Origin: Paraprevotella clara YIT 11840
GTDB lineage: Bacteria > Bacteroidota > Bacteroidia > Bacteroidales > Bacteroidaceae
Assembly (NCBI RefSeq): GCF_000233955.1
Contig: NZ_JH376599.1
Span: 2,277-66,276 of the forward strand
Direction of reading: 5' to 3'
Length of the DNA: 64,000 nt
The notes under the pieces are model-generated. The model had not been told where the DNA came from, did no database searches, and saw nothing but the letters and a program-made list of their open reading frames with translations. Every line of letters begins with the position of its first letter. The stretch's first letter is position 1. The translations under genes were made by a program, and so were the position numbers. Shown here piece after piece: positions 13,854-29,539 of this stretch.

Positions 13854-15923
13854 TTAGAATGTGTAGCTCGTGCCGAGACTGACCTTGGCCACTACGTCAT
13901 TGAACGGTGACAACACTTCACCGCCGATGAAACCGTTTTTCAAGTAATAATGGACTTCCGGTTCGAGTAGCAGGCTCCATTGGTCGTTGATACGGTATTG
14001 CGCCACGGCACCGAGCAACAATGCAGGTGCTCCGCCAGGGTTCGCGGCGGACAGGGGACGGGGGGAGGAACCCACTTCGAGTTCGCCGCTGTATATCCGG
14101 GCATTGTCCGACATGCACTTGCTGTACAAGGCACCGCCTTCCACGAAGAGGTTGAACTTCCGGTTTAAGTCATATTTCTGGTAGACGTTGGATAAATTAA
14201 GCATATAGGCCAGTTTGATGTTCAGCAGGTTGTAGCGGTATTGCCATAGTGCGGTGAATTGTTTTTCCACGCCCATGAAATCCACCACATAACTCCCATA
14301 CTTGTTTTCGTTGAGGGTTTCATACTCTATGGCAGCCTTGAGCGAGACGTAAGGCCCGAGGTGGTAGCCTACGTAAAACTGTCCCGAGTAGTTCAGGGCG
14401 AAGTCACCCACGGTGTTCACCGAACGCATGTGTTTTAACCCTCCTACTTGCACGCCGGAGAACAGGCGTGGCTCGAAGATATAAGGGGGCCACGAGGCGC
14501 GTTCTTTCCGGTTGGCTGCACAGACGCGCACGCCGAGCGATATGGAGGCCGAAGTTTCGGTGAAGGACGCTTCGCGAGCCACATTCACGTATGGTTCACG
14601 GAAATTGGCCACAACCACACGGGGCTCCACGAAAAAAGAAGTCTCTTTGTCCATGCTGTACAGGAAAGTGGCGGCACCCGTGAAACCGGCGTAGTTGCAT
14701 TTCAGGCCGTTGTCCGTTCCCGGGATGTATTTGGTCAGCCAACCGTATTCGCCTCCCACGGCGATATTCATCTCAAACGGATGGCGTACTTGCCGCCAAT
14801 AGGGGAAGAAGTTGAGAGGATTGACCAATCCTTCGAGCCGTCCGGCAAACATGCTGCCTTTGTAACGTGTCTCGTAGGAGGGGCGGGCTTCGGTGGCCGC
14901 TGTGGTGTTGTAGCTCCAATAATATTCGGAAGCCGTGGCCGAGAGGCGGAGTCCCACGATGGGGTCGAACCACCGGCCCACGGAAATCTTGTAGCCCGTA
15001 CCGGTCGTTTTGAAGAAGCCCAAGTCATCGCTGTCATAAAAAGTCACACCCTGTGCCAGTTCGTAGAAAAATCCGCGTGTATAGACCACGTCGCTGTTAT
15101 AAAAGTCATTGGTATTGTCCATATTGACTGTCAGACCGGCTTTCACGCCATATTGTATGTCATACTTTGACACGTTCGTATGGCCGGAATGGTCGGCTTG
15201 GTCGGTCAGTGCGGAAAAGAATGGTTCTATGAAGAATTTGGCATTGCGTCCGAGACCTATACCGACGTTTATGCCTGCCTGTCCTTTAAAAATGGAAGCG
15301 CGCTCTCCTTGGAAAACGGAATGTATATAGCCCACGCCGAGAGTAGGAGAGATGCGGAATATGCGTCGTTTGTCGTAGCCATAAAGGTAATCGGACAGAT
15401 GGAATACATAGTCTATATCGGTTTCCCATTGTTTCACGGTGCCATCGCCGTCCTTCATGTCATAGTTCGTGTGCAATAGTGTGGCGCGTAGGCCGTGTAG
15501 CCGGTTGAAGTCATATCCGGCCACACCGCCGAAAGGTATTCCGTTCTTCATGGCCCGTCGGCCTTTCGGGGCGACTTGCGAGAAGCCTGTCGTGAATCCT
15601 ACGTACAGATGGTCAAGGAAACGGTTGCGGAAAGTATCGCCTTTTTCCACATAACGGTCTGGGTACAGGTAGTCCAAGGGGTTGAAGTCCACGGTGTGGT
15701 CCAGTTTGGGTTTGGAGGAGGTGGATACCGCCGTGGAAACCGGAGTTTCCTTGACGGGCTGTACCGCTGTGGTGTCGGCTGCTTCCGGTGTGGAGGATGT
15801 CGCCGTGCTGTCCGGTGCTTCCACAACAGGCCGTACCGCTGTCACCATCGTGTGCGCCTGTCCCGGTGACATGTACCACAGGCACAGGCATGTGCATATT
15901 ATTTTATATTTTCCGTACATCAT
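13854..15923 (-). CDS. Large outer-membrane protein with three beta-barrel-like modules
   Basis: A 689-aa protein with a signal peptide ending near residue 23 (GQAHT) and a Ser/Thr/Pro-rich linker (about residues 30-70). Three consecutive beta-strand-rich modules follow, at about 100-275, 285-465 and 475-689. Each ends in a comparable pattern: FFIEPFFSALTD, FFVEPRVVVANF and LLLEPEVHYYLK, then 30 residues later a strand such as VKAGLTV, ISLGVRV or KVSLGTSYTF. The C-terminal Phe fits BAM-dependent insertion. It is the last gene of the fimbrial operon and may act in fimbrial surface assembly or anchoring, which is inference from context. The alternative is one larger barrel. Confidence 0.75.
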   Translation of the reverse strand: MMYGKYKIICTCLCLWYMSPGQAHTMVTAVRPVVEAPDSTATSSTPEAADTTAVQPVKETPVSTAVSTSSKPKLDHTVDFNPLDYLYPDRYVEKGDTFRNRFLDHLYVGFTTGFSQVAPKGRRAMKNGIPFGGVAGYDFNRLHGLRATLLHTNYDMKDGDGTVKQWETDIDYVFHLSDYLYGYDKRRIFRISPTLGVGYIHSVFQGERASIFKGQAGINVGIGLGRNAKFFIEPFFSALTDQADHSGHTNVSKYDIQYGVKAGLTVNMDNTNDFYNSDVVYTRGFFYELAQGVTFYDSDDLGFFKTTGTGYKISVGRWFDPIVGLRLSATASEYYWSYNTTAATEARPSYETRYKGSMFAGRLEGLVNPLNFFPYWRQVRHPFEMNIAVGGEYGWLTKYIPGTDNGLKCNYAGFTGAATFLYSMDKETSFFVEPRVVVANFREPYVNVAREASFTETSASISLGVRVCAANRKERASWPPYIFEPRLFSGVQVGGLKHMRSVNTVGDFALNYSGQFYVGYHLGPYVSLKAAIEYETLNENKYGSYVVDFMGVEKQFTALWQYRYNLLNIKLAYMLNLSNVYQKYDLNRKFNLFVEGGALYSKCMSDNARIYSGELEVGSSPRPLSAANPGGAPALLLGAVAQYRINDQWSLLLEPEVHYYLKNGFIGGEVLSPFNDVVAKVSLGTSYTF

Positions 15924-15984: not shown

Positions 15985-18642
15985 TCATTCCTCCATGGGT
16001 GTTGCGGCGGGTTGTTGTACCGGCACGGGTGTCGGCACGACTGGCGGACTGGCCGTGGCAGCACTGTCGGTCGGGCTTTCCGTTCCGGATGCCGGACCGG
16101 CAGATGGGGTGGTGGCGGGTGCGCCGGCATCTCCGGATGCTGCGGGCTGCACTGCTTGCTGAGGGGCTGCGGACTTCTCCAAATCAGCCAATATCTTGCG
16201 GCATTGTTCCGGGTCGGCTTTGAGTTTTTTCCAGTATTTTTTGAACGCTTTGCGGTAGTCCTTGTTGAATGTGCCGTCGTTGAGCATGTGTTTCAGGTTG
16301 CGCTCATCCTTCAGGCAGCATTGCACCATCGGTAACCCCCAGTCCATACGTTTATCACCGAGCCTGTTCACCGTGGGGTCATCGTCCGATGGTTCGAAGA
16401 ACTCATCGAACATGAAATTGTCGTCCATGTATCCCGTCGTGGTACGTTTAGGTGCATCCAAGTTAAAGCGTAGTTGTGCCTTGAGGTAAAGCGCCCTTGG
16501 GTCGGCGGGGTCTACTTGTGTGGCATCGTCCAGCATGTAGAGCGCAGTGCCCCAGCATCCGGGGTCTTCCTGCGCCGCCAATATGACGATTTTGTTCCAA
16601 TATGAGGAGTTTGATACGGTATCCATGACCTCCGGGTCGTTCCATTCGCAGTTCAGGCAGCGAAGGAACATTTTCAGTCTGCGATATTCCGGTTTGCCGT
16701 CAGGCAGGAGCATTTCCGCTACGCGATAGGCCGAGGCGAAGGCACCGGCGTTGGCCAGCATCTTGATGTGGGATGTGACGATGGCTTCGTCGTTGTACCA
16801 TCCCTGCCAGCTTGCGTTGCCGAAGTCGTCCATTTTTTGTTTGTGGTATTCCAAATTCAGTTGCACGTCGATGTAAGGTTTGAGCAGGTTGGTGTCCGCC
16901 ACGCCGCGTTGGGCATAACACCGGGCCAGTTCGTAGGCGGCCAACGGCCATTGGCGCAGGCCGTCCTCGTCTTTGACCGATGTGTAGGCGGCCCGGGCTA
17001 TGGTCTCCTTTTCCTTCGGGTCTTTAATCATGTCGAGCAGTTCGTAGAACTCGTAAGGTACTTGTTTTTGCCCGGCGCGGTATCCGGGATCGGTCTGGTA
17101 GAGTTCCCATATCTCTTCGCGTGTTTTCACGCGGTTGGTGTAGTATTGGTATTCGATGTCCACGATGCGCAATTGCGGCAGGATCTGCTGTTCGATGATG
17201 CTCCAGCACGGCAGTTTACGGATGGCGGCCTCCTGCCGCCCCATGTCTTTCGTCGTGGAGAGTACGGCCCGCACACTGGCAGCCTCTTCTTTTAGCGAGT
17301 CGGCTTCCAAGAGGTTCGCCACATCAGTCCATGTGGCCACCTTGTGGGTGGTTTTGATTTCGCCCGTACGGCGGGCATCCTGCAAGGCAGGGAAACGGCT
17401 CAATTCGCCGCGCAGGTATTCCGCACGTTCGCGGCAGAGCCGGGCATTGATGGCTTGTCCTCCTTCGGGCGAGGCCGACCCGTGGATGACCGCACTGGTG
17501 ATGCCCGCATCGGCACCCATATAGCGCGACATGTTGTCTTTGAGTTGGTTCATTTGTTTGAAGTTCAACGTGTCTGTCGGGTCGAGGCGTGCTTCTCCTA
17601 CCACGAATTTCAAATCGAGCTTTTCGTGGTCTTTACTGAATTCCGCCCGTCCTCTTCGTGCATAACGCTCGCGGTTGATGGGAAGCTCGATGAGGCTGTA
17701 ATCCAAGAAGCGCATAGGGTCTTTTACGTAACCCTCGCTCAGGCAGACGCTGTCCTGCCGGTAGGGGGTGTTGGAATTCATGCCGTAGGCCTGAAGGGCA
17801 TCCACCCGGTAACGCGTATTGCGGTCTACGGGTTCCAGAACGAAGTGGATGAGCAGGGAATCTTCCACATGGGAACGCATGAACGTCCCTTCGCGGTATT
17901 TGAACAAGGGGTCGCGGGTTTCGTCGAAGCCCATGCGGCGCAGGTTGCCTCTCTGGAAATCTTCGCCGTCTTTCACGAAGGGAACCAGATGACCCACTAT
18001 CTCGCCGTTGCCTTCTTCCTCATTCTCGTCCAGGTTCACCTCTTCGCTGATGGGAATCGCCTTGACCACGGGGCTGACGATGATGCGTGATTTGTCGTCC
18101 GTGTCGTCGGTCGACAGATAATAGTAGAAAGGACCGACCACCATGCGGTTGCCGCACATGTTGGGGATTTGCGGCTCATTCTTCCGTTTGCGTTTGGCGG
18201 TTTTGGTCACCGTGCCCATCTGCTTGGCGGCCAGGCAGGTCACTTTGATGTCCATCATGCCGCGCAATTCCCGTTTCACGAGGGTGGCCCCCTCCGGTTT
18301 CACGACGATATAGCCCGTCAATGGAAGCTGCATCAGGCAGTAGCCGTCCTGGTCGGTCTCGCCCAAAGCGTCGTACTCCGATTCTGACTGTGGAACATAG
18401 GTCGAGCCGTTGGCTTCCGCCTCCTGGCTTTTCTTCACGAAGGCGTTGGCCTTGCTCGCGTTGAAAAAGCCATATACGATGACATTCGGCCAAGGGGCTA
18501 CATCCTTGCTGTTCAGGTCTTCCGCTTTGCGGACCGTGATATTGATGTTCTTCACCTGGGCTTCTGCGGGGATATGGACCGCTACGATGAACAGCAGGAA
18601 TAGCAGGCGGCGTATAATCATATAGAAATTCGTTTTATACAT
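15985..18642 (-). CDS. OmpA-domain and TPR-like fimbrial locus protein
   Basis: An 885-aa secreted protein with signal peptide (IIRRLLFLLFIVAVHIPAEA). An N-terminal domain (about residues 30-330) is followed by an OmpA-like peptidoglycan-binding domain (about 340-430, with VIHGSASPEGGQAINARLCRERAEYLR). Next come helical repeats resembling TPRs (about 540-820) and a low-complexity Pro/Ala/Thr tail. Proteins of this design accompany Bacteroidales fimbrillin loci and probably tie the surface structure to the cell wall. The codon at 18654 is TTG, so the ATG at 18642 is preferred; an ATG seven codons later is also possible. Confidence 0.8.
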   Translation of the reverse strand: MYKTNFYMIIRRLLFLLFIVAVHIPAEAQVKNINITVRKAEDLNSKDVAPWPNVIVYGFFNASKANAFVKKSQEAEANGSTYVPQSESEYDALGETDQDGYCLMQLPLTGYIVVKPEGATLVKRELRGMMDIKVTCLAAKQMGTVTKTAKRKRKNEPQIPNMCGNRMVVGPFYYYLSTDDTDDKSRIIVSPVVKAIPISEEVNLDENEEEGNGEIVGHLVPFVKDGEDFQRGNLRRMGFDETRDPLFKYREGTFMRSHVEDSLLIHFVLEPVDRNTRYRVDALQAYGMNSNTPYRQDSVCLSEGYVKDPMRFLDYSLIELPINRERYARRGRAEFSKDHEKLDLKFVVGEARLDPTDTLNFKQMNQLKDNMSRYMGADAGITSAVIHGSASPEGGQAINARLCRERAEYLRGELSRFPALQDARRTGEIKTTHKVATWTDVANLLEADSLKEEAASVRAVLSTTKDMGRQEAAIRKLPCWSIIEQQILPQLRIVDIEYQYYTNRVKTREEIWELYQTDPGYRAGQKQVPYEFYELLDMIKDPKEKETIARAAYTSVKDEDGLRQWPLAAYELARCYAQRGVADTNLLKPYIDVQLNLEYHKQKMDDFGNASWQGWYNDEAIVTSHIKMLANAGAFASAYRVAEMLLPDGKPEYRRLKMFLRCLNCEWNDPEVMDTVSNSSYWNKIVILAAQEDPGCWGTALYMLDDATQVDPADPRALYLKAQLRFNLDAPKRTTTGYMDDNFMFDEFFEPSDDDPTVNRLGDKRMDWGLPMVQCCLKDERNLKHMLNDGTFNKDYRKAFKKYWKKLKADPEQCRKILADLEKSAAPQQAVQPAASGDAGAPATTPSAGPASGTESPTDSAATASPPVVPTPVPVQQPAATPMEE

Positions 18643-18663
18643 GGTGATATGCAAGTTGTGGGT

Positions 18664-19197
18664 TTACTTGATGATATAGGCGAAGGAAACGCCGAGTTTG
18701 AACGGGATGAAGGCGTAGCCGTGCGCTGTGCGGCGGTTTTCGGAATAATGGTCGTCGCGGTAGTAATGTTTGTGATCGTAGTAGACGGCACCCACACTCC
18801 CGTAACATTCTATGTTCCAATGGGGCGAGAGGAAGAAAGCGTAGCCGAAAGTCAGTCCGCCGCCCCAGGCGTCGCCCTTATAGGTCTCGCTGCCCCACGT
18901 GATGTCGTAAGACGTGCCAAGGGCTGCCACTCCGATGAATTCGCGCATCATGGGGCGTCCGCCGAACCAATAGCGGAATTCGGGGATGGCACCCACCATT
19001 TTCATGTCCATACCCCACGGTTTGTAGTTGCCGAACACGGACAAGCCGAAGCTGGTCTTGTTGCCCGTAACGATTTCCATGCCTAAGTTAGGGGTCATCA
19101 GTCCATCCCACAGTGCGTCGGTCTTCAGGGCCAATAGCTGCGCTTTCAGTCCGGCTGTTACAGCTACGGTTATGATTGTTGATAAAAGGCGTTTCAT
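18664..19197 (-). CDS. DUF3575 outer-membrane beta-barrel protein
   Basis: A 177-aa protein with signal peptide (KRLLSTIITVAVTAGLKA). The DUF3575 signature follows: LALKTDALWDGLMTPNLGMEI, then GLSVFGNYKPWG and PEFRYWFGGRPM. It probably forms an eight-stranded outer-membrane barrel. Members are frequent in fimbrillin operons. The frame is open to 19251, but the ATG at 19197 starts the signal peptide. It is the second DUF3575 protein in the operon; the other has a long charged tail. Confidence 0.85.
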   Translation of the reverse strand: MKRLLSTIITVAVTAGLKAQLLALKTDALWDGLMTPNLGMEIVTGNKTSFGLSVFGNYKPWGMDMKMVGAIPEFRYWFGGRPMMREFIGVAALGTSYDITWGSETYKGDAWGGGLTFGYAFFLSPHWNIECYGSVGAVYYDHKHYYRDDHYSENRRTAHGYAFIPFKLGVSFAYIIK

Positions 19198-19314
19198 TCG
19201 TTCTTTTCGATTGGTTTGTTCTTTTTTGAAAAAACATCCTCCGGCGCACACGGTTGCGAGGTATGCGGCCGGAAGATGTGCCGTCGGGCTTTTATGCCAG
19301 AAGGGAGGGGCATG

Positions 19315-20532
19315 TCATAGCTCGACGGAGGGGCCGTTGACGGAATCCTGCCAATCGGTGAGGCTGGCATTTGCTTTCACTTCTTCTATGTCGTTCACCG
19401 TGATGGTCACCATGTAAGAGATTCCTTGGCGGAACAGGTTGGTGTCGCTTTCGGAAGCACCGTAAGGAGGCCCTACGGTGAGCCATTCTTCCGTAGTGAT
19501 GTCGAAACCGTCTTCCGGGGCTTCTCCATCTTTGTGTAGCGTGATTTCAAGACGGTATTTCTTTTCCGGGTACAGCATCAGGCTGCCGCCCACTCTCGTG
19601 GCCTGGTCCAAGGTCGTACCGATGGCTACAGGCTGCAAGTCTCCGTCTTGCGCATCCTTGAGCGTGAAATCTGCCCTTGTTTCGTCGGCCGATGGTTGGA
19701 TTCTTTCAGCCAACGTGAGTCTCTTGCTCGGATCCTCGCCCCATTGTTCGCGCTTTTCCAAGTCGGCCACGATGAGGTCTACTTTGGAATGCGCATCGAG
19801 GATCTTGATGGACTTCACGGAAATCTTGCCTGCATCCTCGAATACGGAACCTTTGTTTAGCGGATCCTCTCCGGGTTTCACTTGGAACTGTAAACGTGTC
19901 AGCATGTGCTGCAAGCCGATTAAGGGCATGGCTGCGTCCTTGTTCTCCCGGAAGTAGCGTGCGCTGTAAGCATACTTGTCCAGGAGTGTGGCTCTTCCCC
20001 AGATGATGTCCTGTGTGCCGTCTATCGTATAATGCACTGTGGCGCGATGACGCGGGCCGCCGGAGCCGTCTCCGTCTGCCGACGCTTCATACGTGATATG
20101 GGCATCCTCTGCATACGGATAGTAGCCGTAGAACTCATACATGTAGAATTGGCTGATGGGGTAGAAGTAGTGTTCCTCCCACGTCACGTTGCTGCCTTCC
20201 TTCTTCGCTTTCACGTTTTTCATCAGGCAGGAAGCGTAGTTGTCTTCAGGGTCGAACCACGAAATATCGGGTGCGCCATCGTTTTTCTCCTGTTTCCCAC
20301 GTGCGAGACAGAACACCCCCATTTCGTCCAGATTGCCGTCTTCGTCCACTGTGGCCCGCTTGTCCACGGAAGTGGACACCTCATCCGAATGGGCGGCGAA
20401 GCGGATTTCCACTTCGCTGTTTCCGGGGATGAATACGGGGGCGGACGCATGATCCGACAGGTCTTCGTTGGAACAGCCGGGCAGCAGCATGCAAGCTGCC
20501 GCCACGGCCCAAAGATAATGATGTAACTTCAT
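19315..20532 (-). CDS. Fimbrillin family lipoprotein (minor/tip candidate)
   Basis: A 405-aa precursor with lipobox LLPGC (Cys20). A first beta-strand (SEVEIRFAAHS) ends in Lys-Arg at residues 58-59, followed by the mature domain. The FYGYYPYAED and GTQDIIWGRA segments and the LQHMLTRLQFQVKPG strand are fimbrillin features. In type V pili, lipoprotein precursors are cut after Arg by a surface protease and polymerise by strand exchange. The same Lys-Arg position occurs in all three fimbrillins here. It lies 18 nt after the preceding fimbrillin gene. Stalk or tip position cannot be told from sequence. Confidence 0.85.
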   Translation of the reverse strand: MKLHHYLWAVAAACMLLPGCSNEDLSDHASAPVFIPGNSEVEIRFAAHSDEVSTSVDKRATVDEDGNLDEMGVFCLARGKQEKNDGAPDISWFDPEDNYASCLMKNVKAKKEGSNVTWEEHYFYPISQFYMYEFYGYYPYAEDAHITYEASADGDGSGGPRHRATVHYTIDGTQDIIWGRATLLDKYAYSARYFRENKDAAMPLIGLQHMLTRLQFQVKPGEDPLNKGSVFEDAGKISVKSIKILDAHSKVDLIVADLEKREQWGEDPSKRLTLAERIQPSADETRADFTLKDAQDGDLQPVAIGTTLDQATRVGGSLMLYPEKKYRLEITLHKDGEAPEDGFDITTEEWLTVGPPYGASESDTNLFRQGISYMVTITVNDIEEVKANASLTDWQDSVNGPSVEL

Positions 20533-20550: not shown

Positions 20551-21951
20551 TTAGTTGACGTTTGTATCCACTTCGAGGTCACCACCGTCCTTCCAACCGG
20601 TAAGTGTGGCATCGACTTCAACCTTGGCCATGCCATAGACCTTCACATTGACTGCATAAGAAGAACCCGCTTCGGCTATTGCGCCTTCTGCTGTTCCACC
20701 TTTAGTCAAATCGATGGCTTTTTCCAAGGTGACTGAACCTACGGCATCGTGGTCTGGATCATTTTCCTCGAATGTCTGTTCTATGGTAATATACATCGTA
20801 TATTCTGATTCTCCCGGCGCTACCATCAACGCATGGCCTATCGGTTGTTTTTCATACGTCTTGTCTGGACTACCGGTACCCTCTTGGATTGTGACAGCTT
20901 CGAGGGCTGTCACGTCAGTGTTGGCACCAGTACGGCTCTTCAAATCGAGCTTTACAGGTTCTTCTGTGGCTGGTTCACTACCGACAGGAAGCGTCCATTC
21001 CAACATTTTCTCCGGTTTGAATACTCCGTCGGCCAAGTCGTAAGCCACAATCATCTTACCCGTGGTCTTGGATTTTACCGCGATGTTCGTAACTTTGAGT
21101 CCTACGGCTGATTCTGCTGCAGCTTGTACGGTGAAAGTGAAACGGGTGAGCAAGTGTTGCATGTTGATAGCAGGCTTGATACCGGCACGGGCCGTTTGGG
21201 CAGAGAAACCTAAGTTCTTGCCCACTTCATCCTCTTCTCCTTCATTTGTGGCTACGCCTGTCATCAGATCTTGTGAACCGTCAATTTTGAACCATACATA
21301 TTTCATCTTAACTTGTCCTTCCACTAATGAGTCGCGTACCATGAAATCTGTATTTGCACTTACATCCGTTTTATTCGTTTTCCAAGCAGGATTGGTATAA
21401 ATCGTTGCGGCATCGTCGATATTATATGCGAAGAAATCATGTATGCCCTCATCGGGATAATACTTTGGAGACGTCTCTTCCGTCAATGACAGTGCCCCGG
21501 ATGCTACATTGGTAGGAGCTGTGACTTCTACGTTGGGAAAATTGACGATGGTGGCTGTCGGATTCGTATGTTCTGGTGTTGTTCCGTCATATTCAGTGTC
21601 ATCGATGTTCGGGTCGTCTTCACCGGAAGCGGCTGCACTCTGATAAGTCCAAGTGGTGAACCCCCACGGGTTAGTCTGGGCTTGGTCGGACTTGGAGCGT
21701 TGCATCATCAGAAGGTATAACTTTTCTCCCTGCCATTTATTGGCTTCTTCTCCTTCGATGTCGCCGACGGTACCGATTCCACGTTTTTCAACCGTTACGG
21801 AGGGGCCGTTCAGAGCCAGTTCTACCGGCACCAGTCCGTTGCCATTTCCTACACCGGGCGTGCCGTTGGTTACGGCAACGTCGTCGTTGGAACAACTTCC
21901 CAACATACCCATGCCTGCTACTAAAGCAGATGCAAAAAATAATTTTCTCAT
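20551..21951 (-). CDS. Fimbrillin family lipoprotein (major stalk candidate)
   Basis: A 466-aa precursor with lipobox MLGSC (Cys20), a first strand LVPVELALNG, and Lys-Arg at residues 56-57 before GIGTVGDIEGEE. Characteristic segments are the DFFAYNIDD region, DGSQDLMTGVATN, the MQHLLTRFTFTVQ strand and the acidic, Gly/Thr-rich composition. Its central position and canonical fimbrillin layout make it the best stalk candidate, but that is inference. It is preceded by a 57-nt gap from the upstream fimbrillin gene, the largest spacing among the lipoprotein genes except the one after 19315. Confidence 0.85.
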   Translation of the reverse strand: MRKLFFASALVAGMGMLGSCSNDDVAVTNGTPGVGNGNGLVPVELALNGPSVTVEKRGIGTVGDIEGEEANKWQGEKLYLLMMQRSKSDQAQTNPWGFTTWTYQSAAASGEDDPNIDDTEYDGTTPEHTNPTATIVNFPNVEVTAPTNVASGALSLTEETSPKYYPDEGIHDFFAYNIDDAATIYTNPAWKTNKTDVSANTDFMVRDSLVEGQVKMKYVWFKIDGSQDLMTGVATNEGEEDEVGKNLGFSAQTARAGIKPAINMQHLLTRFTFTVQAAAESAVGLKVTNIAVKSKTTGKMIVAYDLADGVFKPEKMLEWTLPVGSEPATEEPVKLDLKSRTGANTDVTALEAVTIQEGTGSPDKTYEKQPIGHALMVAPGESEYTMYITIEQTFEENDPDHDAVGSVTLEKAIDLTKGGTAEGAIAEAGSSYAVNVKVYGMAKVEVDATLTGWKDGGDLEVDTNVN

Positions 21952-22008: not shown

Positions 22009-23316
22009 TCAGTTTGTATCTTCCTCTTCTTCTCCAACGGTGATGTCGCCTCCCGAAATCCATCCCAATCCTTTGCCGTCTACGGTCAGTTCTATTTTGC
22101 GCGGGCCGTAGACTTTCAACAGCACATCATGCGTCTTACCGGATTGGAAGCCGCCTTCAAAACGCAAGTTGCTGTATTTGGCAATGAATATGGAACCCGA
22201 AGGAATCTTGTCTTCCGGGTTAGCCGTGAGAAAACGGTAGTGGATGATTACGCCCAATTGGTCTATGGGAGGAATCAACAGTGGCTTGCCGATTTTGACA
22301 GGTTCTTCTTCCGGGTCGCTCACGCCGGGTTCCGGGTCGAAAGTGGCATTTTCTCTTTTCAGTGTCGCCCCGAATTCGGTAGGTGTGTTTTCGTTGGGTA
22401 CGTAGACCGTGTCGCACGTAGCTTCCCACGAAATGCCCGTCGGGGGAACGTTGGTCTCGTCCGTCCAGTCGTGTGAAACGCCGGCCCAGTCGGCAGCTAC
22501 CGTGAATTGCGCCCTCGTGGGGATGACTAAGGCAACGGACTGTATGCGTATTTCCCGTCCTTGTTGCTTCAGGGTATCGTAAGCCTGCACCAGAAAGTTG
22601 AGCCGTGCCATTTCGTGTTTCACGCGAAGATGCGGTTCGACGTGCAGGCGTGCACTTTTCGTGCTGTATACCAAATCCCCGGCATGATTCATGAGATATT
22701 TGGTTTCATCATTGTCCGGCAGCCTTTCGGCATCTTCCGTGCCGGGACGGGCGTATGCCGAAATCAGGTCTTGTGTGCCGTCAATCCGGAAGAACTTGGT
22801 GATGCTGCCTTGTGTTCGTTGTTCCGGGGCATATTCTTCTGCATCTCCTTTATAATAAAGGAAGAAATTGTATTTATGCTCCGGGTAAACCGCGCTGTAA
22901 TACGGCGGCTCGCCGTCGGCCCATAACAGTTCGCAGGCGGCTGAAATCCGTGCTTTGCGGTCGTTTACCAGGCAAAGGGGTGCACCGCCCCCAGTGGAAG
23001 TTTCGTCGGCTGTGAGGTCAGGAGTTCCGTCGTACACATGGTTGCGCGTCAGGAATGCGTAGACGCCGAATTCCGCTGCCATCCATTTGGCACGTTCCTC
23101 TTCGTCGTCCCAAAAGCCGAAAGACCCTTGGCCCCGTTTACCCGTCACTAAGGCGTAGGCCGGGTCGGTGAGCGACAGGGTGACGGGGATACTGTCTGCC
23201 GTCATTTCCGGATTCGGGTTGTCTGCGTCGTAGACGGGCGCATACAGTCCGGGGTAGGATTCGTTGCAGGCTGCGAGCGCGCAGCACAAACCTATTCCTG
23301 CGATGTATCTTTTCAT
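22009..23316 (-). CDS. Fimbrillin family lipoprotein
   Basis: A 435-aa precursor with lipobox ALAAC (Cys17), first strand IPVTLSLTDP and Lys-Arg at residues 60-61 before GQGSFGFWDDEEE. The IDGTQDLISAYARPG and VKHEMARLNFLVQA segments align in kind with the two other fimbrillins. Further upstream starts exist (ATG at 23343 and a GTG at 23352 overlapping the DUF5119 stop), but the ATG at 23316 starts a proper lipoprotein signal. It may be an accessory or tip subunit. Confidence 0.83.
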   Translation of the reverse strand: MKRYIAGIGLCCALAACNESYPGLYAPVYDADNPNPEMTADSIPVTLSLTDPAYALVTGKRGQGSFGFWDDEEERAKWMAAEFGVYAFLTRNHVYDGTPDLTADETSTGGGAPLCLVNDRKARISAACELLWADGEPPYYSAVYPEHKYNFFLYYKGDAEEYAPEQRTQGSITKFFRIDGTQDLISAYARPGTEDAERLPDNDETKYLMNHAGDLVYSTKSARLHVEPHLRVKHEMARLNFLVQAYDTLKQQGREIRIQSVALVIPTRAQFTVAADWAGVSHDWTDETNVPPTGISWEATCDTVYVPNENTPTEFGATLKRENATFDPEPGVSDPEEEPVKIGKPLLIPPIDQLGVIIHYRFLTANPEDKIPSGSIFIAKYSNLRFEGGFQSGKTHDVLLKVYGPRKIELTVDGKGLGWISGGDITVGEEEEDTN

Positions 23317-23348
23317 TTCAGTATGTTTGCTTTTCCTCTTCATACGTT

Positions 23349-24551
23349 TCACACTTCAATTTCAAACGTTTCGCCGGGTATCCATTGGTCCAGTCCGGTC
23401 GAGGTGCTGCCACCGTTCAGGATACCGTCTTTGTCGATATTCAGTGGTGAGCCGATTTCCACTGTGATGCTTCGGCTGGCTTGCCGGTAGCCGTTCTCCT
23501 CTTCGTCCCATTGCAGCGATTTGCGCTCTTTCAAGGTATGGTAGAGGTTGATGCCTGCATGGAACACTTTGGCTGCTTTCCTTTGCGTTCCTTCCTCTTC
23601 GTAGTCGTAGTGGGTGTAAATGGCGATTTGCAGGATGCCCGGCCCCGTGACCATGTCTTCGGTATGGCTCCGTACGATACCGGGAATGTTGACGGAGGCT
23701 TCACAGCGCAACGCTTCCGCCGAGGCGCTGTCGGCCGCTGAAGGCAGGGCGGCGTATGTCGGCCTGAACAACAGTTTGTAGGTCTTTTGGGCCAGAATCA
23801 GTCCCGTGGTCAGTTCCATGGTGGATGGTATGCCGGAGATTTCGGCCGTAAGGCTGTCCACTACCACGTCTGCCGTCTTTTCGATGTGGAATACGAACGA
23901 CACGTCCTGTGTGAGCGGTTCGGGCGTGAAGTCCACTACCACCTGGCCTGTCCCTTCTTGGGCCAAAGGGACGGACACATGGTCTACCCGGGCATAGAAC
24001 ACGGGGACACCCTCACTGGAGATGAAGTCGGAGTAAGCGTTGTAATCCTTCCATTCACCATACGCCCCCGCCACTTTCGGATCGTCCACGGGGTAGTGGC
24101 GGTAGGTAAGGTAGAGTGGGGTCAGGCCGCTTCCCAATGTGGCCGCGTCGCCTTGCGTGTCCACGATGTCGGTGGCATCTACCAGTTCACCTTCATCCCA
24201 TCCGAATGTGGCGAAGTTATATTCACCACTGCGTACCCATAGGTTGTGCGTTCCGGCCGGAGCTAATGTGTCGGCCGAAGGCTGTCTTTCCGTTTCGGGC
24301 TGCATGAGGATGCCGTTGTTGTGGCTTTCCTCAGCGGTTATCCGGAATTCATACCGCAGGATGTTGACCGGACGCACGGCTATTACTCCCATGCTGTCGG
24401 GACGGTTTCCTTGGTATTCCTCTTTCCAATGGAAACGGAAATCCATGAAGGAACGGTGAGGGTGTTCCGCCTGGCATAAGTCCACTTCTGTACATGAAGC
24501 CATGGCGCAGAGGAGCGGGAGTACGGCAATCAGACTGCTACATGGTTTCAT
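23349..24551 (-). CDS. DUF5119 lipoprotein of the fimbrial locus (anchor candidate)
   Basis: A 400-aa lipoprotein with lipobox AMASC. The conserved segments of DUF5119 are visible: FHWKEEYQGNRPDSMGVIAVRP, LWVRSGEYNFATFGWD and a long beta-rich body. Unlike the three fimbrillins it has no Lys-Arg cleavage site after the first strand. This would fit a subunit that stays lipid-anchored, such as Mfa2-type anchors, though that role is inferred. It overlaps the upstream DUF3575 gene by 4 nt (ATGA). Confidence 0.8.
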   Translation of the reverse strand: MKPCSSLIAVLPLLCAMASCTEVDLCQAEHPHRSFMDFRFHWKEEYQGNRPDSMGVIAVRPVNILRYEFRITAEESHNNGILMQPETERQPSADTLAPAGTHNLWVRSGEYNFATFGWDEGELVDATDIVDTQGDAATLGSGLTPLYLTYRHYPVDDPKVAGAYGEWKDYNAYSDFISSEGVPVFYARVDHVSVPLAQEGTGQVVVDFTPEPLTQDVSFVFHIEKTADVVVDSLTAEISGIPSTMELTTGLILAQKTYKLLFRPTYAALPSAADSASAEALRCEASVNIPGIVRSHTEDMVTGPGILQIAIYTHYDYEEEGTQRKAAKVFHAGINLYHTLKERKSLQWDEEENGYRQASRSITVEIGSPLNIDKDGILNGGSTSTGLDQWIPGETFEIEV

Positions 24552-25918
24552 ACGCGTCCCTCCTTTCTTGTTTCCTCGGGGATACTGTGCCGTAGTCTTC
24601 CTTTGTCGGCCCGATATCCGCCGGATGGTCTGCCTTTTATGTGAAAATAGGTTTCCACGGGGTCTTCTTCTTTGGATTCTTTATTTTTCTTCTTACGTCT
24701 TTTTTCTTTCCGGCTTGCTTTTTTCTTGTCGCCGGTGTCTTCGGGCGTGTCGGCCTTGGCGCTTCCGGATGGTGTTTCGGAGGTGCCGTTGCCCGTTGCG
24801 GCTTGGGGCGTAGCCGTCACTTGTTCTTCCCCTTCCGTTTTCTTTCCTTTCCTCTTACGGCGGGACTTGCCCTTCTCCCCGGCCTCTGCCTTGGCTTTTT
24901 CTTCAGCCTTGGCCTTCTCCTTTGCTACATCTTCTAATGAGTCGTTCAGCTCCAGTGTGCGGCGGAGCGAGTCGCGTGAGAATTTCTCAGCTTCCGCTTC
25001 TTTGCGGCGCACCTTGTACATGGAGTCGCGGATTTCCCAATTGCGTTGCCGTACGCGTGAGCGTTCGTTGCGTTTTTCTTTTTGCCGGGTATCCCATTCA
25101 TCGTAACGTTCGGCACCCCCCTGTACCTTCTTTCCGATAGAGCGGAAGCGAAAGACGAATGAAAGATGTATGTCCTGTACCACCGGAAAAGGTACGATAT
25201 GCCGTCCCTTCGAACCTTGGTAAGTGTAACATCCGTATTCTTCGTCATAGCCGAACTTGTCGTACGCCGTCATTTTGGCACCGACGGCCAAGCCTAAGTC
25301 CAAGTCTACGCTTCGGCCATCCTTGAAAGGATAAAGGGGAACACTCCATCCTCCGGTGAAACCGAAGTTATAACTGTCACCCTGTTTGCCTTTCCGTCCC
25401 AGGCTGATGGTGTATTTCTCATAACCGGCATACACGCCCACGTAGTAGGCACGCCAAACCCGAGGATTCATGAAGGTACGTCCCGAGAGCACGTTGCGCC
25501 TGAAACGCCTGAAGCCCCAGAGCGGCAGGGAGATGGTGGTGTCGCGGTTATCTTTCGTGTAGCGTTCCATGGCTCCTCTGATAGAACCGCCCGTACGCCA
25601 ATACTTCCGGGCTTCCACACTCCCGGCCGCCACGTTGTACACGATGCGCGGCTGTATGGAATGGTGGGTATTCCAATTATATTTGCCGTTCATAAGTATA
25701 GAGAAACGGGTCTTTTCATTGCCAGCCAAGTCAAACTCCACTCCGAGGTTGGGAGTGGCTACTATCCAGTCCACGGCGTTGGTCATGATAGACCAACGTT
25801 TAAGAAAGGGCACGGTGTCATGTCTTACGTCCTTTGTTCCGGATAAGGCTTGCCCGTAAAAAATAGCGGGTGTCAAACAAACCCACATCAAGAGTGTCCT
25901 AATGATCAACTTTTGCAT
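24548..25918 (-). CDS. DUF3575 barrel protein with long charged C-terminal tail
   Basis: A 456-aa protein, first gene of the fimbrial operon. After a signal peptide (to about FYGQA) comes a DUF3575-type beta-barrel (about residues 35-260) with TNAVDWIVATPNLGVEFDLAG and VEARKYWRT. From about residue 270 the protein becomes extremely rich in Lys, Glu and Arg with predicted coiled coil, followed by a disordered Lys-rich stretch. Typical DUF3575 proteins stop after the barrel. The tail would lie in the periplasm if strand topology is standard. It may contact peptidoglycan or assembly partners, which is speculation. Confidence 0.8.
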   Translation of the reverse strand: MQKLIIRTLLMWVCLTPAIFYGQALSGTKDVRHDTVPFLKRWSIMTNAVDWIVATPNLGVEFDLAGNEKTRFSILMNGKYNWNTHHSIQPRIVYNVAAGSVEARKYWRTGGSIRGAMERYTKDNRDTTISLPLWGFRRFRRNVLSGRTFMNPRVWRAYYVGVYAGYEKYTISLGRKGKQGDSYNFGFTGGWSVPLYPFKDGRSVDLDLGLAVGAKMTAYDKFGYDEEYGCYTYQGSKGRHIVPFPVVQDIHLSFVFRFRSIGKKVQGGAERYDEWDTRQKEKRNERSRVRQRNWEIRDSMYKVRRKEAEAEKFSRDSLRRTLELNDSLEDVAKEKAKAEEKAKAEAGEKGKSRRKRKGKKTEGEEQVTATPQAATGNGTSETPSGSAKADTPEDTGDKKKASRKEKRRKKKNKESKEEDPVETYFHIKGRPSGGYRADKGRLRHSIPEETRKEGRV

Positions 25919-25969
25919 TCAAACAATATCGTACAATTCGGTTATCAACACTTTTTTAGCCTTTTACAA

Positions 25970-25993
25970 GGTCTATCTCTTACTAAGAGAGCG
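25970..25993 (+). repeat. Left inverted repeat of a candidate invertible promoter
   Basis: A 24-bp arm that matches the arm at 26148-26171 in inverse orientation at 23 of 24 positions, with 20 contiguous identical bases. The arm contains the near-palindrome CTCTTACTAAGAG, as expected for a recombinase core site. It lies 51 nt upstream of the first fimbrial gene. Confidence 0.85.
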
Positions 25994-26147
25994 TACAACT
26001 ACGTAACTCCTTATGTTACAGTTATTATAATTGGAAAATGTTTTGTAAAAGGTTTGCGTATTTTGTTATTCATTTTAGGAAAGGGTCATTTTTAACAAAA
26101 GAAACTTGTTCATTTGCTTCCTTTTACCTATTTTAGCGGTCGAAAAT
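25994..26147. promoter_or_regulatory. Candidate invertible promoter segment of the fimbrial operon
   Basis: A 154-bp AT-rich segment enclosed by the inverted repeats, directly upstream of the operon. The best promoter-like match I found inside is CTTG (26105-26108), 20 nt, TATTTTAG (26129-26136) on the plus strand. It deviates from consensus at one base in each half. It points away from the operon in the orientation shown, so this sequence may represent the OFF state. No equally good match points leftward. The next gene to the right is on the opposite strand, so only the fimbrial operon would benefit from inversion. Confidence 0.7.
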
Positions 26148-26171
26148 CGCTCTCTTAGTAAGAGATAAACC
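26148..26171 (-). repeat. Right inverted repeat of a candidate invertible promoter
   Basis: The inverse copy of the arm at 25970-25993, with one mismatch, containing CTCTTAGTAAGAG. The 150 bp to its right, up to 26321, hold no gene or motif I recognise. Confidence 0.85.
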
Positions 26172-26321
26172 GGATACATATATTTTTAACCGGTGTTGTC
26201 ACGATAACTTGTGGAAGGGGAATATCAGGCTTCTGTTGTCGGCAAAGTTGTATCGGAATTACGTTAATTTAAATCAAACGTTTTTTGCAGTGTTTTGATA
26301 GGGGCGTAAAAACTTTGTGGG

Positions 26322-26662
26322 AACATCCCCTACACAGGGATTTTACAAAAATATCCTTCATCTTTCAGGCTGTATGGTAATTCTCTCATAATATTGATGT
26401 TACAAGCTGAAGGATGTTTCAGGTATCTTTCAGTCACGTTTCATTCCGTTCGCCAGAGATTGGGAAATCATTCGCCTGAGATTTGAAAATCGTTCGGCTG
26501 AGACTGAAAAATCGTTTGGCGCAGAACTTTTTATGGGTCTCTACAATGAAAGGAAACTGAAAGATGAGTTTCCTATCTTTCATTCCATAATATATTATGT
26601 GAGAGGTAGTTGGCCTATGGCCTGAAGGATGAAAGGGCTTTTCTGAAAAACTCCGGGGAGGG
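26322..26662 (+). repeat. Dispersed intergenic repeat, copy A
   Basis: A 341-bp non-coding element homologous to 62962-63283. The best-conserved core is 26390-26451, about 62 nt with only a handful of differences. It contains several CTGAAAGAT/ATCTTTCAG-like words in both orientations, three degenerate copies of a roughly 22-nt unit (ATCGTTTGGCTGAGA-like, 26462-26528) and imperfect terminal inverted repeats at 26346 and 26645. No coding sequence fits. Confidence 0.8.
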
Positions 26663-26673
26663 GAAACGTGTAA

Positions 26674-26714
26674 TTAAAAAATGGGAGGAAAGCTTGTCTT
26701 GCGTTCCTCCCATT
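26674..26714 (-). terminator. Terminator of the M16 peptidase gene
   Basis: The stem AATGGGAGGAA/TTCCTCCCATT (26680-26690 with 26704-26714) starts just after the stop and is followed on the minus strand by a T-run. Confidence 0.85.
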
Positions 26715-26719
26715 CTTGT

Positions 26720-29539
26720 TTATTTCTGTTGCGGTGAGAATATCAGGTCGATGACATCCGCATCCTTGAAGAATTTCTTGGCGAATTTCTGCACGTCCTT
26801 CGGTTGGATGGAAGCCACAAGGGTTTCCATGTTTTTCGGGTCGTTCAGGTTCACTCCGGTCTTATAATATGTAACTAAGGTGGTCAGCCAATAAGCATTG
26901 TGCTGTTTGCTTTGTTCTGCCTCTTTCAGCGTGTTCTTGACCACTTTGCTGAGCTCTTCTTCCGTAACCCCCTCACGGATGATATTGTCCACTTCCTTAT
27001 AAAGCAAGGGTTTCAGTTCATTCGCCTTTTCAGGGTCACATTCGAAGGTCATATACATATTATAATTGTTGTATGGTTCGCGTGAGGCTGAGCCGCTTAC
27101 CCCTACGCCGTAGGTTCCGCCTTGTTCTTCGCGGATGGTCTTGGTGTAGCGGTTGGTGAGGATATTACCCAGTATGTTGATGGTATAAGCCTCTTTCAAG
27201 GTGTACTTCATTTCCCTGTTGAACAGGACTATGACTGTGGACTTCGGAACCTCCAACGGTATTTCTATGTTCTTTTCCACCTTGCCTTTCGGTGCCCTGA
27301 CCTGACGGTCCACCCACTTCTCATTCCGGTAGAGGGAGGGGAGAGAACCGATGTATTTCTGAGCCATGACCCGCGCCGTGTCTTTGTCCACGTTTCCGAC
27401 GATGAAGAAAGTAAAATCGCTGGCATCGCAGATACGGTCACGGTAAGCCTTTTCGATACGGTCGAGCGTCAACCGGTCTACGTATGCGTCGTTGAACAAT
27501 TGTACGCGCGGACTGTAGTTGGCGGAAATCAATGAGAGAGAATCGCGCATGATGGTCTGCGGTTGCCCGGCAATCTGCTTGGCATAGATATGGTTGCGTT
27601 CGATGATGACTTTATGTGCCAGTGTATCGAAGCGAGGTTCCATAAAACGGAGGTACATCAGTTGCATCATCGTTTCGAAGTCTTTGGGCGTAGAACTTCC
27701 GTTGACGTTCTCATACAATCCGCTGATAGAAACCTCACATCCGGCCTTTTTACCTGTCAGCAGCTTGCCCAATGCGATTTCGTCGTAGGTACCCAAACCG
27801 TAGTTCGAAGCAAATTGTCCGGCATTGGATGCCGCAGGAAGGAAATTGACATCCGTATATAAAGAAGAACCGCCGGGACTGTAAGCGGCCAGTGCCACTT
27901 CGTCTTTTTCATAATCGGCCTTGCGGTAGATTACTTTTGCCCCGTTGCTTAAAGTCCATTCTTCGGCTTGGAATTGCGGCAGTTCCTTCACTTTTGTGAT
28001 CGTTCCGGCTGTGGGCTCTTTTTCGATGAGATTGCCTTTTACGCTATTGTCTTCGTATGCAGAGACTTCCTTTCCTTCCATTTCGGCAAGGATGTCCCGG
28101 GCCTCTTGTTCCGTCAGGTGTGTGACGCCTTCGCTTGGGCCGCTGATGACGATGGTACGGTTGTCTGTCTTCCACCATCTTTTGGCTTGTTCGGAAACTT
28201 CTTCTGCCGTGATGGTCGGAAGGATTTCCTTGACTGCCTCGGCATAATCCTCTATGTTGATGATGGCTTCATTGCCTAAGAAATGGGATTGCATTTCTTC
28301 AGCATAGGTGTCATTGGATGTTTTGTCCTTGTCTTTCACCATGGATTCGAGGCTGGTCAGCATATTGGCTTTCGCACGGTTCAGTTCATCTTCGGTGAAC
28401 CCATGCTGGAATATACGTTCGTGCTCCTCTAAGGCTCCGATAAGCGCTTCTCTTTCCTGATTCGGCTTGGCTGTAGCACTGATGGAATAAGCATAGTATC
28501 CTTTTACCATACCGAAAAAGCCGACCGAAGCTTTTACGTAAGGGGCTTGTCCGCGTTGAATAATCTCTCCGATACGTTCACCCACCATACTGTTGTAGAA
28601 GCCGATCATCAGACCGTTTTTCACGTCCTGGTACGTGGCATATCCCTTGCCGTCGTATTCTTTGTCGCGGAAGATACGGATAACCTGTACGTTGGACGAA
28701 GTGGCTTCCTTGTCGGTGGCCAGACAGAAATAAGTTTCGTCATGGGAAGGAATTTCAAAAAACGGACGTGGTTCCGGATTAGGGATAACGGGAATGGATG
28801 AAAAGACTTTCTTTATCTTTTCTTCCATATTCTTGATATCGAAGTCTCCTACGATAGCAATGGCTTCCAAGTCCGTGCGGTACCATTTGTGGTAAAAGTC
28901 GCGCAAGGTTTCGGGCTTGAACGTCCGGATGACATCCATGTCGCCGATGACATCGCGCTCGGCATATTTCGAGCCTTTGTAGAGTACAGGTCTTTTCTGG
29001 TTATAGATACGGGTTGCGCTGTTGTTGCGCGTACGCCACTCCTCGGTGATGACCCCACGTTCCTCGTCGATGTCTTTCGGGTCGAGGGTCAGGTAATAAG
29101 ACCAGTCGTGCAGAATAAGCAGGCACGTGTCCGTCAGGCTTTCGTCTGCCATCGGCACATCGCTGATATTGTAAACCGTTTCGTTCTGTGTGGTGTAGGC
29201 ATTCAGGTTCCCACCGAAAGAGATTCCATGACGTTCGAGTGTGGAAATCATGCTGTTGCCCGGGAAGTTCTTACTGCCGTTAAAGGCCATGTGTTCCAAG
29301 AAGTGGGCCAAGCCGTCCTGATCGTCATTCTCAAGCAATGCGCCTGCGTTGCGGATGATGAAGAAACTGGCCCGGTCTTTAGGTTCTTCGTTATGCCGGA
29401 GGTAATAAGTGATACCGTTCGGTAGCTTGCCGATCAGGACATTCGGGTCTGCCGGAAGTTTCTTGTTCCAGTCGATGGGTTGTGCATACCCTATCAGGCT
29501 GAGAAACAGGAATGACAGCAATAGAATTTTTTGTTTCAT
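26720..29539 (-). CDS. M16 family zinc peptidase (insulinase/PqqL-like)
   Basis: A 939-aa secreted metallopeptidase with signal peptide (KQKILLLSFLFLSLIGYAQ). The inverted zinc motif H79-F-L-E-H83 is present, with the third ligand Glu near residue 159-160 in DEERGVITEEWR. An inactive C-terminal M16 half follows (about 510-939), the usual two-lobed clam shell in one chain. It probably cleaves peptides in the periplasm. The gene lies 41 nt downstream of the acyl-CoA synthetase gene and ends at a clear terminator. Confidence 0.93.
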   Translation of the reverse strand: MKQKILLLSFLFLSLIGYAQPIDWNKKLPADPNVLIGKLPNGITYYLRHNEEPKDRASFFIIRNAGALLENDDQDGLAHFLEHMAFNGSKNFPGNSMISTLERHGISFGGNLNAYTTQNETVYNISDVPMADESLTDTCLLILHDWSYYLTLDPKDIDEERGVITEEWRTRNNSATRIYNQKRPVLYKGSKYAERDVIGDMDVIRTFKPETLRDFYHKWYRTDLEAIAIVGDFDIKNMEEKIKKVFSSIPVIPNPEPRPFFEIPSHDETYFCLATDKEATSSNVQVIRIFRDKEYDGKGYATYQDVKNGLMIGFYNSMVGERIGEIIQRGQAPYVKASVGFFGMVKGYYAYSISATAKPNQEREALIGALEEHERIFQHGFTEDELNRAKANMLTSLESMVKDKDKTSNDTYAEEMQSHFLGNEAIINIEDYAEAVKEILPTITAEEVSEQAKRWWKTDNRTIVISGPSEGVTHLTEQEARDILAEMEGKEVSAYEDNSVKGNLIEKEPTAGTITKVKELPQFQAEEWTLSNGAKVIYRKADYEKDEVALAAYSPGGSSLYTDVNFLPAASNAGQFASNYGLGTYDEIALGKLLTGKKAGCEVSISGLYENVNGSSTPKDFETMMQLMYLRFMEPRFDTLAHKVIIERNHIYAKQIAGQPQTIMRDSLSLISANYSPRVQLFNDAYVDRLTLDRIEKAYRDRICDASDFTFFIVGNVDKDTARVMAQKYIGSLPSLYRNEKWVDRQVRAPKGKVEKNIEIPLEVPKSTVIVLFNREMKYTLKEAYTINILGNILTNRYTKTIREEQGGTYGVGVSGSASREPYNNYNMYMTFECDPEKANELKPLLYKEVDNIIREGVTEEELSKVVKNTLKEAEQSKQHNAYWLTTLVTYYKTGVNLNDPKNMETLVASIQPKDVQKFAKKFFKDADVIDLIFSPQQK

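Follow-up and report, generated by a model that had tools for sequence, protein, structure and literature searches.

A candidate promoter inverton upstream of a fimbrillin-like operon in Paraprevotella, predicted to be switched by a distant tyrosine recombinase

The window, that is, the whole stretch of 64,000 nucleotides analysed here, corresponds to positions 2277-66276 of contig C23 of a 4.2-Mb genome (G000), the host of which belongs to the genus Paraprevotella, not Bacteroides. Its minus strand carries eight consecutive ORFs, running from position 25918 down to 13854, which the first-pass annotation had taken for an eight-gene operon, and this gene arrangement was confirmed. The first gene (24548-25918) encodes a DUF3575 protein (PF12099) and is followed by a gene with no Pfam match (23349-24551), by two genes whose products resemble the fimbrillin-like family Mfa_like_1 (22009-23352, a weak match with an E value of 0.0035, below the cut-off; 20551-21951, E value 8e-5, below the gathering score), and by a gene for a fimbrillin-like Mfa_like_1 protein (19315-20532, E value 6e-11). 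The last of these three resemblances, found among the seven operon proteins searched with Pfam, is the one that scores over the gathering score. Further along lie an ORF call of 195 aa (18664-19251) and two genes with no Pfam match, coding for proteins of 889 aa (15985-18654) and 689 aa (13854-15923), the latter being the last gene of the operon. NCBIfam gave no family for the seven operon proteins searched. The reading frames of the operon are open.

Upstream of the first gene there is an inverted repeat, the 24-nt arms of which (25970-25993 and 26148-26171) are complementary at 23 of 24 positions (96%) and enclose 154 nt. The contiguous 20-mer TATCTCTTACTAAGAGAGCG matched the window at two places, both exactly, with up to three mismatches allowed, and did not occur in 100 dinucleotide shuffles. 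The first operon gene begins with an ATG at 25918 on the minus strand, 51 nt from the left arm. Each arm harbours a near-palindrome close to TCTCTT-NNN-AAGAGA, which is predicted to be a recombination site: on the plus strand, the left one (25976-25990) has the core ACT at 25982-25984, while the right one (26151-26165) has the core AGT at 26157-26159, the inverse complement of the left core. The arms, their distance from the operon and the near-palindromes had all been described beforehand and were recovered without change. Two sites in inverted orientation flank a segment upstream of a gene, and this segment (25994-26147) is predicted to invert, as judged from its sibling loci. To the right of the switch, a 22-nt unit is present in three imperfect tandem copies (26449-26514).

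The window repeat proved to be one of many when other copies of its arm were sought in the genome. The own genome contains the exact pattern TCTCTYNNNRAGAGA 33 times and its reversed control not once; 32 of these occurrences form 16 pairs, 154-211 bp apart. In all 16 pairs the 3-nt core of the left site is the inverse complement of that of the right site; with shuffled partners, a mean of 1.7 and a maximum of 10 of 16 pairs matched (100,000 shuffles). Where the base flanking the core departs from the consensus (C15:3556/3767 and C31:44574/44729), the identical change is present in the partner arm. The common letters are adjoined by RTYTA or RTYGC in 50 of the 64 half-sites, and the interiors of the 16 pairs are dissimilar by eye. 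The idea that every locus has a core of its own was rejected, since only 8 different cores, counted irrespective of reading direction, are spread over the 16 loci; the core is therefore only partly able to keep the loci apart.

The Pfam search covered 19 genes neighbouring the site pairs, several of which were left without a family. The pairs C39a and C39b adjoin genes for NusG-type proteins, read by us as UpxY-like. C15b is flanked by a glycosyltransferase gene on each side, C16 lies between genes for an outer-membrane barrel and a PD40 protein, and C3b between genes for BACON/M6 and leucine-rich-repeat proteins; OmpA is encoded next to C65 and a hybrid two-component regulator next to C23b. 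C3b, C15b, C16 and C21a each have genes starting to the left and to the right, which would allow the switch to select one of two genes. The glycosyltransferase gene beside C28, which runs toward the switch, is no obvious target.

The promoter consensus of Bacteroidales consists of a -33 element TTG and a -7 element TAnnTTTG. An exact TAnnTTTG pointing outward lies no more than 45 nt from a site in 14 of the 16 segments, compared with a mean of 1.04 and a maximum of 6 of 16 in 500 sets of base-shuffled segments, and an inward TAnnTTTG at the mirror position occurs in none of the 16. Segment C65 has no recognisable -7 element. In the window segment, a putative -7 element TATTTTAG with one mismatch to the consensus (26129-26136, plus strand) lies 14 nt from the right site and is preceded, at a distance of 20 nt, by a putative -33 element TTG (26106-26108, plus strand); the -7 element of the P. 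xylaniphila ortholog is also one base off the consensus, as judged by eye. The best internal promoter-like match had been noted to point away from the operon, and so does the one-mismatch -7 element; from its orientation the sequenced state is predicted to be OFF, as had been supposed. Inversion would move the -7 element to the minus strand (26005-26012) and leave 87 nt between it and the ATG. A sigma-70 scan of positions 25850-26800 returned 2 sites, none of them inside the segment, against a shuffle mean of 2.4, and was set aside as uninformative for this phylum.

Genome contigs were also scanned for site pairs of this kind with a spacing of 151-211 bp and with the cores left unconstrained, which led to at least 115 stretches. 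The titles among the matches listed (80) are nearly all of Bacteroidales, with a few others, including one matched pair titled Lachnospiraceae. Cores match in the inverted sense in 113 of 130 pairs among the matches listed. Nine loci account for the 17 unmatched pairs: four with titles from other phyla, L129 with tandem copies, L208 and L210, and L206 and L237, at the last two of which the unmatched pairs are extra combinations beside a matched pair. Under a looser site definition, the central three bases match in 144 of 148 pairs among the matches listed, a set that comprises most loci from L086 to L297 with the viral ones excluded and with seven loci dropped beforehand, these having been picked post hoc for their unmatched cores (L124, L129, L133, L172, L196, L208 and L210; four are titled as other phyla, and L129 represents tandem copies). 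The spacing counts given below are not changed by the removal of the seven loci, because only matched pairs were used for them. Among the matches listed in the looser set, each core position matches its partner in 97-99% of cases, compared with 27-39% for shuffled partners, and the bases outside the common letters do so in 38-82%, compared with 24-42%. Tyrosine recombinases exchange strands within a central overlap, and the confinement of the strict match to the central three bases fits such an exchange, though part of the core matching may stem from a common origin of the two arms. Viral contigs gave a further 8 stretches with site pairs, which were used for recombinase adjacency only.

The distances between paired sites are not evenly distributed. 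The 16 spacings of the own genome cluster in steps with a best period of 11.0 bp. The 109 matched database pairs, among the matches listed, show peaks at about 164, 175, 186, 198 and 209 bp, and the spacing at the window locus, 175, falls on one of them. The best period of the 109 pairs, among the matches listed, is 11.4 bp (bootstrap 5-95%: 11.15-11.75), the error of which is understated because the pairs are partly related by descent and include a few other Paraprevotella, P. xylaniphila too, so that they are not fully independent of the own 16. Jittered spacing sets were never as strong, either for the own 16 (0 of 400) or for the 109 pairs (0 of 400). Both sets together give a period of 11.3 bp, and the 65 pairs left without the largest peak give 11.15 bp. 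The textbook helical repeat is 10.5 bp, and a period of this length fits less well (R of 0.45 versus 0.54). The phasing may indicate that the two sites have to face one another across a short synaptic loop.

No recombinase gene had been recognised in the window and the enzyme had been expected to act in trans. In agreement with this, the window contains no PF00589 match, those of contig C23 being located at 33-515 and 102598-103122, and no PF00589 place adjoins any of the 16 site pairs. The whole genome yielded 25 PF00589 matches and no match to PF00239, by which a serine invertase of the Mpi type, and with it an Mpi regulon, was rejected. Three integrase-like genes are cut off at contig ends (C23:1-34, C8:1-34 and the end of C10), all within the same ~30 bases and a few codons downstream of the presumed catalytic tyrosine, which indicates that their 3' ends share a repeat unpassed by the assembly; the place on C23 lies about 2.2 kb before the window.

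The best candidate for the enzyme appears to be a 401-aa orphan tyrosine recombinase (L054) encoded on the minus strand of contig C8 (G000:C8:2233-3438). A comparison of all 25 own PF00589 proteins with the ORFs in the site-bearing stretches, genomic and viral, gave 39 matching ORFs among the matches listed; the C8 protein was the closest own protein for 31 of them and other proteins for the remaining 8. Some of these 8 ORFs lie far from the sites, and the lead of the C8 protein over the next own protein is often narrow. In 29 of the 29 loci counted among the matches listed, the recombinase gene is followed 13-605 nt downstream by a site pair; the count is based on hits of more than 200 bits to five own Tsr-like proteins and includes L239, L243 and L244, which agree in score and distance and could represent a single element. 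At these three loci, all on viral contigs, a recombinase of the C8-like family is accompanied by a site pair 31 nt downstream; the copies are perhaps prophage-borne or miscalled. Near the C8 gene itself, as well as near the seven of its nine orthologs that were checked, there is no inverted repeat of 13 nt or longer in the sequence examined. On one side of the C8 gene the two neighbouring ORFs recur in P. xylaniphila.

Alignment of the C8 protein with XerC/XerD-like proteins showed K275, R349, H372 and Y381 to be conserved and a serine to be aligned with the first arginine, all of which we take to be catalytic positions of Xer-like recombinases. The CTnDOT integrase departs from the first catalytic arginine in a similar way. 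NCBIfam returned only below-cut-off matches of the C8 recombinase, to Xer-type and integron models, and the search of solved structures a single weak XerC-like chain; relatives were found in 54 phage records, 53 of them under 60% identity.

In a FastTree phylogeny of 25 site-adjacent proteins and a chosen set from Paraprevotella, the ten C8-type proteins group together in a single clade (support 0.996), which is nested among site-linked recombinases. The recombinases compared within the genus comprised 52 PF00589 stretches, mainly weak-scoring Tsr-like ones. The orphan clade is represented in seven of the seven Paraprevotella genomes with at least 10 sites, against three of the 11 others (70, 78 and 82% complete). 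Over the 18 genomes, the association of the clade with site number has a p value of 0.004 at a cut of at least 10 sites and of 0.015 at a cut of at least 7, with two lower orphan-clade members counted as present; a stricter 600-bit cut, set after the scores were known, gave a Fisher p of 2.5e-4. Two of the genomes, G007 and G013 (70% and 78% complete), possess an orphan-clade recombinase yet only 3 and 1 sites, respectively, and G006, which lacks the orphan, has 7 sites, six of which make up three pairs beside its own recombinases. The own recombinases L048, L051 and L052 were also considered as the master and rejected, their relatives tracking site number less well than the C8 orphan (for L048, p is 0.013 at the 10-site cut and 0.13 at 7).

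It is rather unlikely that the class is inverted by another recombinase, such as a relative of L050 or L051, or by several together, with the C8 protein being a contributor or having other targets. Such a role could be sought among any of the 25 tyrosine recombinase matches in the genome, and the inverted repeats adjacent to L050 and L051 hold TCTCTGCGCAAGAGA and TCTCTATGCAAGAGG, which are similar in shape to the window sites. Among the recombinases compared, however, L051 had relatives in G017, G010, G003 and G009 and L050 had no close relative at all, which means that neither tracks site number as the C8 orphan does. The closeness of the C8 protein to most of the matching ORFs at site-bearing loci, together with the lack of a repeat beside its gene and the orthologs checked, likewise argues for the orphan. 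Adjacent inverted repeats with other core or arm sequences are found in the own genome at L048, L050, L051 and L052, making it likely that more local inversion systems exist.

Comparison with P. xylaniphila was possible for the 8 of 16 pairs whose interior has a homologous stretch of at least 60 nt in one of the P. xylaniphila site pairs analysed. In four of them (C3b, C15a, C28 and C39a) the interior is inverted relative to the flanks, and in the other four (C15b, C16, C21b and the window's own locus) it is collinear. The site class inverts. At C3b the two species differ in the core, AGT as opposed to AAT, and within each species both arms agree, which suggests a concerted change of both arms. 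In addition, three site pairs of P. xylaniphila have a 10-N scaffold gap at the arm, with the arm repeated on either side; this would be expected if the assembler had met both orientations, and is only suggestive of the presence of both. A pair with the core CGT and a spacing of 175 bp also occurs in P. xylaniphila.

The window locus is 91.5% identical to its P. xylaniphila ortholog over 3 kb (blastn), and the orientation is the same, so that flipping is not seen there. After P. xylaniphila, the best match of the first operon gene is found in G001 (62% identity), where a site pair occupies the same place, also 175 bp apart, with the different core CGG/CCG. None of the nine remaining stretches matching the first gene, some of them partial or broken, contains such a site; they come from seven genomes (G004, G006, G007, G009, G011, G012 and G016), of which G007 alone has an orphan-clade recombinase among those compared, and its partial first-gene homologs are without a site nearby.

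The identical orientation in both species and the imperfect -7 element would be in keeping with a former inverton fixed OFF at the window by decay of its promoter or sites, the siblings still switching. This seems improbable, however, given that both sites keep the family consensus with matching cores, that their spacing lies on a phasing peak and that the frames of the operon are open. That the palindromes are sites of a DNA-looping regulator at the promoter and not of recombination is hardly credible, for although helical phasing would fit this too, interiors are inverted against their flanks in half of the comparable pairs, the bases most variable between loci are the very ones matched between partners, and recombinase genes adjoin such sites elsewhere.

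The window segment is thus most probably a promoter inverton that would be served by a tyrosine recombinase encoded elsewhere, with the C8 orphan as the best candidate, and that was sequenced in the OFF state; we put the probability of this reading at roughly 0.87, as far as comparison of sequences can tell. The trans-acting promoter inverton of the first-pass annotation has thereby held as the best reading, with 16 core-matched pairs, four of eight comparable pairs inverted and an exact -7 element in 14 of 16 segments, and it is further backed by the tyrosine recombinase genes that adjoin such sites in other genomes. In the mechanism we infer, a C8-type tyrosine recombinase would bind the two 15-bp near-palindromic sites, which would be brought together across a short, helically phased loop, and strands would be exchanged in a central overlap of which the 3-nt core forms part. 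A core of odd length is never palindromic and the cores match only in the inverted sense, so the predicted outcome is inversion. At the window locus this would turn the putative Bacteroidales-type promoter near the right edge of the segment, OFF as sequenced, toward the operon (ON), presumably resulting in phase variation of the fimbriae. Fifteen further pairs in the same genome share the site type.

A wider proposal seems somewhat favoured by the same data, namely that of a Bacteroidales-wide class of switches with shared TCTCTT/AAGAGA letters, a free 3-nt core changing in concert, and length steps of ~11.3 bp that would be set by the in vivo twist of the synaptic loop; in Paraprevotella, a once-local recombinase would have lost its own switch and come to control up to 16 surface loci as the master of the genus. 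For a gut genus, the analysis adds a candidate master invertase and 16 loci predicted to be its targets, the neighbours of which include the fimbrillin-like operon, UpxY-like NusG proteins, glycosyltransferases, outer-membrane proteins and a hybrid two-component regulator. The class comes with testable rules, that is, the site sequence, matched cores, favoured lengths and promoter position, and with the site definition, candidate switches can be recognised in a sequence without further data. The steps in length might also serve as a natural record of DNA twist in living Bacteroidales.

In Escherichia coli, the fimbrial operon promoter fimS is inverted by the tyrosine recombinases FimB and FimE. 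The window locus resembles it in being a predicted invertible promoter of a fimbrial operon with a tyrosine recombinase as the likely enzyme, but the recombinase genes of fimS lie next to the switch and its sites are different, whereas the window locus has no adjacent recombinase gene. Within Bacteroides fragilis, PMC4747536 describes the serine master invertase Mpi with 13 inverted regions, as well as the tyrosine recombinases Tsr0667, acting on three shufflons and nine other regions, and Tsr19 (BF2766), acting on one local and one distant promoter. Like Mpi with its 13 regions, a single trans-acting enzyme would serve many regions here; unlike Mpi, which is a serine recombinase with a different arm motif (ARACGTTCGTN in PMC8375218), it would not belong to PF00239, to which the Paraprevotella genome has no match. 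Tsr0667 and Tsr19, as described in PMC4747536, resemble the predicted system in that one tyrosine recombinase inverts several distant promoters and surface structures are controlled in gut Bacteroidales. The genus is another one and the candidate targets here number 16, the likeness being one of description. By the same account (PMC4747536) BF2766 lies near one of its two invertons, while the C8 candidate has no inverton of its own nearby.

In a gut community, inverton groups have been linked to tyrosine invertase families (PMC11892184), and the switches described here are similar to those groups in being Bacteroidota promoter invertons tied to a tyrosine invertase family. According to that study, the invertases are generally not placed so as to be driven by the inverton promoter, which likewise holds for 29 of 29 loci here, among the matches listed; the likeness to its group 126 is one of description. 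The terms helical, periodic and palindrom are absent from the main text of PMC11892184. The literature searched, which was openly accessible and comprised neither supplements nor the early genome papers on B. fragilis, gave no description of the site TCTCTTnnnAAGAGA, of matched cores or of helical phasing of invertons, and AAGAGA together with inversion occurred in the accessible text of one paper, where the letters belong to primers and the arm motif is different. The window switch joins the known master-invertase promoter switches of Bacteroidales, to which core matching and phasing may be new additions.
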